Assembly: GCA_903824755.1 (NCBI GenBank)
Contig: CAIJXW010000043.1
Coordinates: 1-40,647 of the forward strand
Length of the DNA: 40,647 nucleotides
Direction of reading: 5' to 3'
Source: an uncultured Bacteroidota bacterium
GTDB lineage: Bacteria > Bacteroidota > Bacteroidia > Flavobacteriales > Flavobacteriaceae
The notes below the pieces were generated by a model, which searched no databases, had not been told where the DNA came from, and was given only the letters and a program-made list of their open reading frames with translations. Position 1 is the first letter of the stretch. The number at the start of each line of letters is the position of its first letter. Both the position numbers and the translations under genes were made by a program. Below, piece after piece: positions 17,538-34,085 of the stretch.

Positions 17538-19055
17538 TTATAATAACGAGTGTCGGGTCATTGCTGTTGGTTTTTCTATCCCCATTAATTCAAGAATGGT
17601 CGGGGCAATATCGCCCAAAACGCCATCATGAATTGTTTTTAACTCCTTGTCGATTAGGATAATTGGGACTGGATTTGTGGTGTGAGCCGTATTTGGACTT
17701 CCGTCTGGATTTATCATTGTTTCGCAATTTCCGTGATCGGCAATAAGAAGGGTAGAATAATTGTTTTTTAAAGCTGCCGTAATTACTTTTTCGACACATT
17801 TATCTACGGCTTCACAAGCCTTTATTGCTGCATTCATATCGCCTGTATGCCCAACCATATCACCATTTGCAAAATTTAGACATACAAAATCAACTTCTCC
17901 TTTTTCTATTTCTGGCACTAATGCTTCTGTTAATTCAAACGCACTCATTTCGGGTTGCAAATCGTATGTTGCCACTTTTGGTGAATTTTTTAATATTCGG
18001 CTTTCGCCAAAAAAAGGAGTTTCACGACCGCCCGAGAAGAAGAATGTCACGTGAGGGTACTTTTCTGTTTCGGCAATTCGGATTTGTTTTTTGTTGGCTT
18101 TCTCCAAAACTTCGCCTAGTGTTTCTGTGATGTTGTCTTTATTGTAAACTACTTTTACGTTGCTGTATGTCTCGTCATAGTTGGTTAGCGTTACATAATA
18201 TAAGTTCAATTTATGCATGTTTTGCTCATGAAAATCTTTTTGAGACAATGCCTCTGTTAACTCTCTACCTCTGTCTGTTCGGAAATTAAAGAATAAAACG
18301 ACATCATTTTCCTGAATAGTTGCAATTGGATTTTCAGCTTCGTCCACCATTATTATTGGGGCTATAAATTCGTCTGTGATATTTTTTTTATAGCTTTCTT
18401 CGATGGTATTGATGGCATTTTTTGAATGAGTTCCTACTGCGTTAACTAATAAATCGTAGGCTAATTTTATTCGTTCCCATCGTTTGTCTCGATCCATGGC
18501 GTAGTATCTACCTATAACTGTGGCGAGTTTTACGGTTGTTTTTTGTATATAGTTTTCTATATCCTGAATATATTTTTTTCCTGATTTTGGGTCAACGTCA
18601 CGTCCGTCAGTAAAGGCATGAATATATACTTTTTTCAACCCGAAGTTTTGTGTTGCGTCTATCAGTCCTCGCAAATGTGATGTGTGAGAGTGAACGCCTC
18701 CGTCAGAAACAAGTCCCAGAAGATGGACGTTTGTGTTGTGGTCTTTTGCATATTGAAAGGCGTCAACTAAAACGGGTTCGGTGTTTAAAGTTTTGTGTTC
18801 TACGGCCAAATTTATTTTGGCTAAATCTTGATATACAATTCGTCCTGCTCCAAGGTTCATGTGTCCCACTTCTGAATTTCCCATTTGGCCCTCAGGCAAA
18901 CCTACATTTAGTCCGTCTGTTCGGAGTTGTGCATTTGGAAATTTTGAATATAATGATTCTATAAATGGAATGTTTGCGTTGTCGATTGCAGATACTTTTG
19001 GGTCTGGAGATTTGCCCCAACCATCAAGAATCATGAGGATTACTTTCTTGTTCAT
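17538..19055 (-). CDS. gpmI: 2,3-bisphosphoglycerate-independent phosphoglycerate mutase
   Basis: MILDGWGKSPD, GNSEVGHMNLGAGRIVYQDL, HIHAFTDGRDVDPKSG-like, LNFANGDMVGHTGD, ADHGNCE. Confidence 0.97.
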   Translation of the reverse strand: MNKKVILMILDGWGKSPDPKVSAIDNANIPFIESLYSKFPNAQLRTDGLNVGLPEGQMGNSEVGHMNLGAGRIVYQDLAKINLAVEHKTLNTEPVLVDAFQYAKDHNTNVHLLGLVSDGGVHSHTSHLRGLIDATQNFGLKKVYIHAFTDGRDVDPKSGKKYIQDIENYIQKTTVKLATVIGRYYAMDRDKRWERIKLAYDLLVNAVGTHSKNAINTIEESYKKNITDEFIAPIIMVDEAENPIATIQENDVVLFFNFRTDRGRELTEALSQKDFHEQNMHKLNLYYVTLTNYDETYSNVKVVYNKDNITETLGEVLEKANKKQIRIAETEKYPHVTFFFSGGRETPFFGESRILKNSPKVATYDLQPEMSAFELTEALVPEIEKGEVDFVCLNFANGDMVGHTGDMNAAIKACEAVDKCVEKVITAALKNNYSTLLIADHGNCETMINPDGSPNTAHTTNPVPIILIDKELKTIHDGVLGDIAPTILELMGIEKPTAMTRHSLL

Positions 19056-19068
19056 GTTTGCAGTTTAA

Positions 19069-19149
19069 TAGCCCAGATGGCAGTGGAAATCCTTTTTGTT
19101 TTTTCTTTAAAAAACAAAAAGATTGAAACGCACAGCTGGAAATAGCTCC
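19069..19149. repeat. Structured intergenic element (nested inverted repeats), copy 1
   Basis: Minus-strand reading GGAGCTATTTCCAGCTGTGCGTTTCAATCTTTTTGTTTTTTAAAGAAAAAACAAAAAGGATTTCCACTGCCATCTGGGCTA; nested pairs AGC/GCT, CCAG/CTGG, GTG/CAC, then a 13-bp perfect stem CTTTTTGTTTTTT/AAAAAACAAAAAG. A diverged copy lies at 33958-34011. Confidence 0.75.
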
Positions 19150-19166
19150 AAATTTAAGAAATAAAA

Positions 19167-21587
19167 TTAATGTTTGAAGCGATTATAATCTATAAAATAG
19201 CGAAGACTCAATGAAAAAACGTGTCCAAGAGCGTCATTATTCAATAAATTTGAGATGTTTTTCCCAAAATCTTTATTGATAGATTGTTCGAAAGTGTTTG
19301 AATTGTTGCGGTATAAGACAGAAAGTTGGCTACCAGGAGCGAACCACCAAGAATAGGAAAGGTCAAAATTCCAGGAGTTATAGTTGGAGTCTTTGTTAGT
19401 GATGGCGGTCGATCCAGAATAGTCAGAATATTTTCCGTTATCGTTCAGGGCAAGAAAATTCTTGTTTTCGGAATAGGACCAATATTGACGCACAGACAAA
19501 TTGATCGTCATCAGACTATTTATGGAATATTTTCCTGCTATCGAATTGGAATAGGTGATCACATTTCTATTGGCAAAGATAATTTCGTTTGCTGTGTTTG
19601 GGTTGTTGTCTAGGTCTAAATCTGAGACATTTATATAGCCTTTATTGTTGTTTTGTCTAAAAAAATTGAAGTTATAATTCAATGAAAATTTGTCGTTGAA
19701 ACGATATCTAGGCCCTATATTTATTCCGTATGAATTTCGGCCAATTTCATTTAGAACGGCTGCAGTTGGGTTGATGTCGAGGGCAAATTTGTAATTATAA
19801 TTTGACGAAAAATAAATCCAGCCTCCAAATTTTGTAGGAAAAATTACAAATCTGTTTTCTGTTCTTGGTTCATAATAATCGTAGTTTTCAAATGGATTTG
19901 CATTGATTCCAAACCCTAAATAGTGATTTTTTTTGTTGGTTAAATTGATGTTCAAATTGATTTGATTGGCTTGTAGTTTTCCTGTTTCTTTTTGAAATTG
20001 GGAGAAAACATTGATATTCGTAAAAAACGAGTTTAGGTGTTTTGTTGAGGTTAAAATTCGATAATTGGCATTTCCAAAAAGGCTATAATAATTGGTTTGA
20101 AAATTTATTCCAAGGTCGTTATTGTCAAAGTTTTTTGTATTGACATCTCCCCCAATTCCGTATCTAATTTTCCCGCTGGTTTTTCCTAAATTTAAAGACG
20201 AAAAGATTCCTTTTTTTATTTCGCCATCATTTATATAACTGTATTTAAAATCGCCCGAAAGGTTGAATGTGTTCTTTTTTGTGTTTAAATCGAACACAAT
20301 TGCCGAGACGTTTGCATCTCGAAAGCTGCCGTTTCTCGTGACGTTTGTGTTTATTAATGAAACGGAGGAATTTTTGTTAAATCGTTGGTCAAAAACCAAC
20401 ACATTATAGTTTGTTAGAGGCTCAATTTCTACTCTTTTTGTAGCTTGTGTCACTGTGTTTCTGACGGTGACAAAGGTGTCTTCGGTCACCGCATTGAGCA
20501 CCCCGATTCCTAATCCGTTTTTTGTTCGTCCCGATATTTTTAGTGCATTGATGAGTTTTACATTATTTGGATATTCCTCCACGATTTCATCAGAATTTAG
20601 TGTGGGATAGGAGGAAGGGCTTCCGCCAATTCTTCTAGAATATAATAAATTCCCTTTGTTGAACAAGTCTGTTCCTTCGGTAAAAAAAGCTCTGTTTTCG
20701 TTAAATTGTTGCTCGAAAGGGCCTAGATTTAGAATTTTTTCGTCAAATTTTGCTTGTCCAAAATCTGGAACCAAAATTGCATCTAGCGTAAACGCATCAT
20801 TTATTCCATATTTTATATCAAGCCCTCCTTTTATTGTCCCTTTTGTTTTTTGAGTACCACCATCTAAATAAAAAGAAGAATAAGGCATTAAAAATAAACG
20901 AGTTGGGGTTTTAATATTTTGAATTCCTTCTAGGTTTCCTGCTTGCTGAATTACATTCCCTATTTTATTATCAATATTTGTCCAGGTATATACTTGATTG
21001 TCTCGCTTTATAGCACGGACAAAGTTGATTCCCCACGACTGAATTTTTTCGTCCGAAAAGCGAATTGCAGCATACGGAATCCTCATTTCTACGACCCACC
21101 CAAAATCGGTTATTCTTGTTTTGCTTCCCCAAACGGCGTCCCACGAAAAGTCTTCGCCAGTGGTTTCGGTTGCCAAACAATCCGCTTGTGTTCCTGATGC
21201 CGTGCAGAAAAATCGAAAATCTTGTTGCCCATCATTGAAGCCATTTATAAATACGCCAAAAGTATCTGTTGTCCCAAAATCATCTCGTTGCGTAATTTCT
21301 TTTAAGATTTTATTTGGTTCATTGTCATAGAGCATTGCTCCGATATAGACATATTCATTATTATATATGATTTTTACTTCCGTTTTTTTATCGTTTGAAA
21401 TAGGCTTTCCATTATCAGGTTCAAACATGATAAAATCCTTAGCGATTTCGGCATTTTTCCAAATCGGCTCATCTAGATTTCCGTCTAAATTAATGGGTTC
21501 CGAAACAGGAATTGTGTGCAAGATCTTTTTTTGAGAAAAAGATTTTGAAAACGAAAACAGAAATAAAATAATAATTGCTTTTTGCAT
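19167..21587 (-). CDS. DUF5916 domain-containing, CBM9-like N-terminus, outer membrane beta-barrel-like protein
   Basis: PINLDGNLDEPIWKNAEIAKDFIMFEPDNG (CBM9-like), FSLSLRYFIDYNRFKH C-terminus, long beta-rich region. Confidence 0.88.
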   Translation of the reverse strand: MQKAIIILFLFSFSKSFSQKKILHTIPVSEPINLDGNLDEPIWKNAEIAKDFIMFEPDNGKPISNDKKTEVKIIYNNEYVYIGAMLYDNEPNKILKEITQRDDFGTTDTFGVFINGFNDGQQDFRFFCTASGTQADCLATETTGEDFSWDAVWGSKTRITDFGWVVEMRIPYAAIRFSDEKIQSWGINFVRAIKRDNQVYTWTNIDNKIGNVIQQAGNLEGIQNIKTPTRLFLMPYSSFYLDGGTQKTKGTIKGGLDIKYGINDAFTLDAILVPDFGQAKFDEKILNLGPFEQQFNENRAFFTEGTDLFNKGNLLYSRRIGGSPSSYPTLNSDEIVEEYPNNVKLINALKISGRTKNGLGIGVLNAVTEDTFVTVRNTVTQATKRVEIEPLTNYNVLVFDQRFNKNSSVSLINTNVTRNGSFRDANVSAIVFDLNTKKNTFNLSGDFKYSYINDGEIKKGIFSSLNLGKTSGKIRYGIGGDVNTKNFDNNDLGINFQTNYYSLFGNANYRILTSTKHLNSFFTNINVFSQFQKETGKLQANQINLNINLTNKKNHYLGFGINANPFENYDYYEPRTENRFVIFPTKFGGWIYFSSNYNYKFALDINPTAAVLNEIGRNSYGINIGPRYRFNDKFSLNYNFNFFRQNNNKGYINVSDLDLDNNPNTANEIIFANRNVITYSNSIAGKYSINSLMTINLSVRQYWSYSENKNFLALNDNGKYSDYSGSTAITNKDSNYNSWNFDLSYSWWFAPGSQLSVLYRNNSNTFEQSINKDFGKNISNLLNNDALGHVFSLSLRYFIDYNRFKH

Positions 21588-33957: not shown

Positions 33958-34011
33958 ATTTGGAGCTATTTCCTGCTTTCTGTTTCATTCTTTTCAAAAA
34001 AGGATTTTCAC
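33958..34011 (+). repeat. Structured intergenic element, partial or degenerate copy 2
   Basis: TTTGGAGCTATTTCCTGCTTTCTGTTTCATTCTTTTCAAAAAAGGATTTTCAC aligns with the minus strand of 19069-19152 (31/36 plus 14/15 by hand, with a loop-length gap). Confidence 0.65.
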
Positions 34012-34085
34012 GATAATCGAATTTTGACGAATACTTCAAAAATAAAGGGTTAGTGAAGAAATTAGAGCAAAAAAATTAAATAAAT

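Follow-up and report, generated by a model that had tools for sequence, protein, structure and literature searches.

What kind of element fills the 111-bp gap between gpmI and its neighbor in a 40,647-nt stretch of contig CAIJXW010000043.1 from an uncultured Flavobacteriaceae bacterium (the window, meaning the whole stretch analyzed), and does it act on the genes beside it? The two genes, gpmI (17538–19055; start codon 19053–19055) and the DUF5916 gene (19167–21587), are co-directional on the minus strand, and both names are upheld by Pfam (iPGM_N/Metalloenzyme and DUF5916, respectively). An earlier note on this DNA had described nested inverted repeats in the gap, correctly placing their edge ∼13 nt from the gpmI ATG, and had suggested that they might be transcribed as a gpmI leader. 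We identify the element as one copy of Flavo-1, a repeat dispersed among intergenic regions, whose plus strand is kept foldable into one fixed ladder with an interchangeable hairpin cap, and whose placement ignores gene orientation.

The family is already catalogued. Positions 19066–19146 (plus strand) match Rfam RF01705 (Flavo-1) over model positions 1–76 with 79.4 bits (E 4e-16), well above the gathering cut-off of 42 bits, and the conserved end runs on to ...GCTCC at 19149. The earlier note had named Flavo-1 among the Rfam families to compare and had allowed that a described family might account for the element; it does belong to one, though to a family with no assigned function. Flavo-1 is filed in Rfam as an sRNA, is likewise classed as RNA by Weinberg et al. 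2010, and is one of the most abundant families of small RNA that databases list (PMC9029176). A second, degenerate copy in the window (33965–34028, minus strand), between the NAD synthase and gldB genes, has lost its left outer arm and scores 30.9 bits, below the cut-off.

The earlier statement that such sequences recur in Flavobacterium was right: the window genome (2 Mb in 190 contigs, 89% complete) has 75 matches, and other genomes of the genus yielded as few as 0 and 4 scored matches and as many as 100 or more. When one genome per species was scanned for the pattern, the matches listed came mostly from Flavobacterium and also included Chryseobacterium, Halpernia, Kaistella, Epilithonimonas, Dokdonia, Psychroflexus, and a MAG labelled Chitinophaga; viral contigs, searched for phage carriage, gave no match to the exact pattern. 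Several variants were seen. A longer subtype (L040, L045, L046, L055, L069, L071–L073, and similar) carries GCGTGAGGGAT...GCCCGACC(C)GAA on the outside, with more complementary sequence beyond it, instead of the TAGCCC...GCTCC ends. L042 (C165:8535–8678), L167, and G010 matches of ∼143 bp are extended by long central arms; several of them within one genome are almost equal in length and may form an amplifying lineage of their own. Two identical copies (L024, C80:22–102; L025, C178:5532–5612) lie 21 bp from two contig ends, indicating that the assembly broke at a repeat carrying Flavo-1. Repeats of the GATTGCTTCG or CCTTCGACTTCGCTCAGGATGAC type directly adjoin several copies (flanks of L169, L171, L143, and L161), and some of these repeats resemble CGTC-tagged palindromes.

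On the plus strand of the gpmI copy (19066–19149), the left outer arm (19070–19076) consists of AGC (19070–19072), paired with GCT (19145–19147), and CCAG (19073–19076), paired with CTGG (19136–19139), with a right-side bulge, AAATA (19140–19144), between CTGG and GCT. The left half of the ladder (19077–19090) continues with an A.G mismatch, TG, GCA (GNA loop 1), GT, GGA (GNA loop 2), and AAT; a single extrahelical C (19091), conserved among copies, leads into the replaceable central hairpin (19092–19121; 13-bp stem 19092–19104/19109–19121, loop CTTT 19105–19108), and the right half (19122–19139) returns through ATT, GAA, AC, GCA, CA, G, and CTGG. Of the segments described earlier, AGC/GCT, CCAG/CTGG, and the perfect 13-bp stem with its 4-nt loop are all there, whereas GTG/CAC has to be replaced by the true covarying pairs, TG/CA (19078–19079 with 19133–19134) and GT/AC (19083–19084 with 19128–19129); the internal loops of this copy are two 3×3 GNA/GNA purine loops.

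The consensus has the same architecture. Read on the plus strand, AGC pairs with GCU and CC-N6-G with C-N6′-GG, followed by the A.G mismatch; U-N10 then pairs with N10′-A, and a 3×3 GNA/GNA loop, an R-Y segment paired with R-Y, and a second 3×3 GNA/GNA loop lead to AAU (or a variant) paired with AUU, one unpaired C, and a hairpin of free sequence. The arms are pseudo-symmetric, with GNARYGNA on each side. As for covariation, which the earlier note had proposed to check, the four variable ladder positions compensate almost always, being Watson–Crick in 217, 218, 222, and 205 of 222 unique copies against shuffled maxima of 114, 120, 170, and 143, counts in which arms were anchored by a regular expression that required the ladder motif on each side and left complementarity at the four positions free, and in which copies inside one genome are related, so that pairs are not independent events. 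All four Watson–Crick pair types are used at both N6 (A19075:T19137 in the window, the position with 217/222) and N10, while G11 and A13 of the GNA loop are nearly invariant. A lone C, the only extra left-hand base, occurs in 213 of the 214 hairpins scored, and hairpin pairs are Watson–Crick in 2302 of 2362 cases, with a register picked for the best stem and thus favoring pairing there. The central stem sequence itself is wholly different between copies and between orthologues. For the gpmI copy, RNA folding relative to dinucleotide shuffles reaches z-scores of −2.8 (plus) and −2.3 (minus), and DNA folding is stronger (−4.4 and −3.9).

Mismatches point to the strand that folds. Across the 222 unique copies, G.T mismatches outnumber A.C by 49 to 10 (p 2.7e-7), which indicates folding of the plus strand, where the purine loops also lie; single-strand folding of this strand appears to be what selection sees. 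This excess tells which strand folds and cannot separate RNA from ssDNA. As a control, seven tRNAs gave 20:0 for G.U-type versus A.C mismatches, with 12.8% G.U compared to ∼1.5% G.T in Flavo-1, and the two ratios do not separate cleanly (p 0.058). A DNA-only argument from the rarity of G.T, based on hairpins of three genomes (G.T:A.C 11:7), was dropped given the ratio in the larger set.

The main rival to an ssDNA-repeat reading is an RNA role, in which transcripts of the plus strand would fold, bind a protein or the ribosome, and alter stability or processing. We regard this as a serious though rather doubtful possibility. It would accommodate the mismatch excess, the GNA/GNA loops, which are standard RNA motifs, the existing classification as RNA, and the coincidence of some F. 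psychrophilum 5′ transcripts with Flavo-1 (PMC9723704), but placement argues against it. Among 94 placed copies in other genomes, 27 are sense, 35 antisense, 16 convergent, and 16 divergent, in line with a baseline of spacers ≥90 bp from the same loci (157 co-directional, 32 convergent, and 41 divergent; p 0.77); the window genome has 14, 28, 8, and 14, respectively, all gene calls being simple longest-ORF calls that introduce some error into the class counts. Antisense copies are thus slightly commoner than sense copies in both sets, without the consistent sense orientation of a cis leader, and divergent spacers are occupied at the baseline rate. No conserved promoter-like sequence was seen in the 30 bp upstream of the 222 unique copies, which disfavors an autonomous sRNA gene, and in the F. 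psychrophilum transcriptome Flavo-1 was found in sense and antisense alike, with many copies outside transcripts (PMC9723704). With respect to replication, copies in three closed genomes show no leading/lagging-strand bias (72:78, with the terminus assumed opposite dnaA). One of these three, G057, has 40 plus-strand and 16 minus-strand copies among the matches listed, in the same way in both assumed replichores.

The leader suggested earlier may hold at the gpmI locus alone; as a general explanation it fails, since all gene arrangements are used as often as the baseline has them and neither strand is clearly preferred. In 25 of 25 sampled species without Flavo-1 at gpmI, the ATG has CAAA[GT][AG]TA close upstream, a TAnnTTTG-type (TATCTTTG-type) box when read on the gpmI strand, whereas in none of the five species with the element (G000, G055, G014, G098, and G047) is this ATG-side box left, Flavo-1 filling the spacer instead (all read by eye). 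The far-side box is kept in the other four, as TAAATTTG in G055, G014, and G098 and TAATTTTG in G047. In the window, TAAATTTG adjoins the other edge of the element (19149–19156, minus strand), just as the earlier note had it, and fits the Bacteroidota −7 box TAnnTTTG; it belongs to the gpmI locus and forms no part of the Flavo-1 flank consensus. As a candidate promoter, it would give the complement of Flavo-1 as the gpmI leader, which may serve locally as an antisense leader.

That such a leader, or an attenuator, was domesticated from a Flavo-1 insertion specifically at gpmI seems improbable. Retention of Flavo-1 in five diverged species and the loss of the ATG-side box alongside a conserved far-side one speak for it. 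On the other hand, gpmI transcripts would read the complement of the structured strand, G098 and G047 retain the ladder with a different central hairpin, and most Flavobacterium express gpmI without Flavo-1.

A transcription terminator, perhaps bidirectional, is less probable again. Stop codons often lie within about 10–20 nt of Flavo-1, and the stem is strong, but a T-run is often found 5′ of the element and an A-run 3′ of it, so that on either strand the stem has no U-tract behind it, in agreement with the earlier remark that the element lacks the hairpin-plus-T-tract form. Neither enrichment between convergent genes nor depletion between divergent ones was found among the copies placed in other genomes (16 vs 16, baseline-like). 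Baseline placement and the lack of a U-tract together make a terminator, or a general cis leader, unlikely.

The weakest reading, a classical REP mobilized by a RAYT (Y1 HUH) transposase, is largely refuted and very improbable: copy number, intergenic position, and the extrahelical base are REP-like (PMC6006769), but no RAYT turned up in G004 (at least 100 copies), G011 (at least 44 copies), G012, G055, or the window genome, which is 89% complete. Several copy-rich genomes, G000 and G004 among them, lack RAYT and other Y1 transposases; no Flavo-1 flanks the RAYT loci save for one copy >1 kb away; and the tetranucleotide at the hairpin foot is CTAG (118), TTAG (64), or ATAG (32) and the REP tag GTAG (of GTAG/GTGG) in only 5 of 222 copies. 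The RAYT/IS200 Y1 transposases were rejected as mobilizers on the grounds of their absence from copy-rich genomes and of loci without flanking Flavo-1. Another candidate partner, the four-helix-bundle 23S IVP family PF05635, was likewise discarded, as its counts do not track Flavo-1 and only one Flavo-1 was found at 20 loci.

Comparison of close genomes revealed how the copies turn over. G006 and G075 carry 40 and 25 copies, respectively, in flanks that are mostly 92–99% identical, and when 39 G006 copies were compared with 20 of the 25 in G075, about half had no counterpart. At the 15–16 shared sites most elements are near-identical, and about five have an exchanged core (L139/L179, L161/L181, L137/L180, L163/L193, and L170/L175, with at least one of the two flanks near-identical); chiefly the apical hairpin changed in L139/L179, and the entire element in L161/L181. 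One G075 site shows a deletion that kept the 3′ remnant ATAGCGGGATTAGCTCC alone, and one further site lacks Flavo-1. In L141 (G006) versus L195 (G075), the whole spacer differs though the flanks are ∼94–97% identical, with Flavo-1 in one genome and short degenerate repeats in the other. Copies of one genome share hairpin types that differ from those of other lineages, a pattern suggestive of recent amplification or gene conversion. No clean empty site with a target duplication was found between G006 and G075, where deletions, replacements, or unalignable spacers occur instead, and insertion is accordingly something we infer.

Taken together, the interpretation we put first, with middling confidence, is a REP-like single-strand-folding DNA repeat, spread or homogenized by a putative enzyme or by gene conversion. 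The folded strand that matters would be transient ssDNA, recognized by a putative trans-acting nuclease or recombinase, and Flavo-1 would work like a REP, IS200-end, or attC hairpin, as a small non-autonomous repeat whose copies spread, get lost, and swap cores by re-insertion or gene conversion. Both its mobility and this mechanism are read from sequence comparisons. At gpmI, on this reading, Flavo-1 displaced what normally adjoins the start codon in an ancestor of the five sampled species, so that gpmI now probably uses the far-side box, and a leader carrying the Flavo-1 complement would be a side effect of that replacement. Baseline placement, the compensated ladder, the extrahelical C, turnover and core swaps in G006/G075, and the equal indifference to strand of the published F. 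psychrophilum transcriptome (PMC9723704) are consistent with such a repeat. Against it stand the missing empty site, the lack of a linked mobilizing gene, the even replichore distribution, although an IS200-kind mechanism on replication-fork ssDNA predicts a bias, and the G.T tolerance, which fits RNA too and which the tRNA control separates poorly. Retention at gpmI in five diverged species could mean a local function, and antisense copies in the window genome often adjoin stop codons. More tentatively, Flavo-1 might represent a new class of ssDNA recombination hairpin, in which a putative non-RAYT enzyme would read the GNA/GNA ladder and the C while apical hairpins are exchanged between loci.

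A strand-folded yet orientation-blind Flavo-1 would move the family away from regulatory RNA and closer to DNA that is mobile or recombinogenic, and such a reassignment would end a misannotation as sRNA that has been listed for more than fifteen years. If mobile, Flavo-1 would shape intergenic regions and promoters of Flavobacterium, with gpmI as an example.

Among known systems, the closest is RF01705 itself; the window element agrees with it along the entire model, in sequence as in structure, and scores above the gathering cut-off. The placement and orientation reported here do not support the transcript-based role that the sRNA filing implies, and we further describe a fixed extrahelical C and a symmetric GNA/GNA ladder. 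REP/RAYT repeats (GTAG- and CGTC-tagged) are alike in being dispersed, intergenic, bulged palindromes of high copy number, whereas Flavo-1 is longer (∼80 nt) and has neither a GTAG tag nor an associated Y1 transposase. Integron attC sites and the end hairpins of IS200/IS605 act as strand-specific folded DNA, in which an extrahelical base is conserved and the remaining sequence is free. Unlike these, Flavo-1 has no core-site motif that we noticed, no linked recombinase, and no replichore bias; by analogy, the likeness would be one of working and not of membership, a folded strand marked by a fixed unpaired base.
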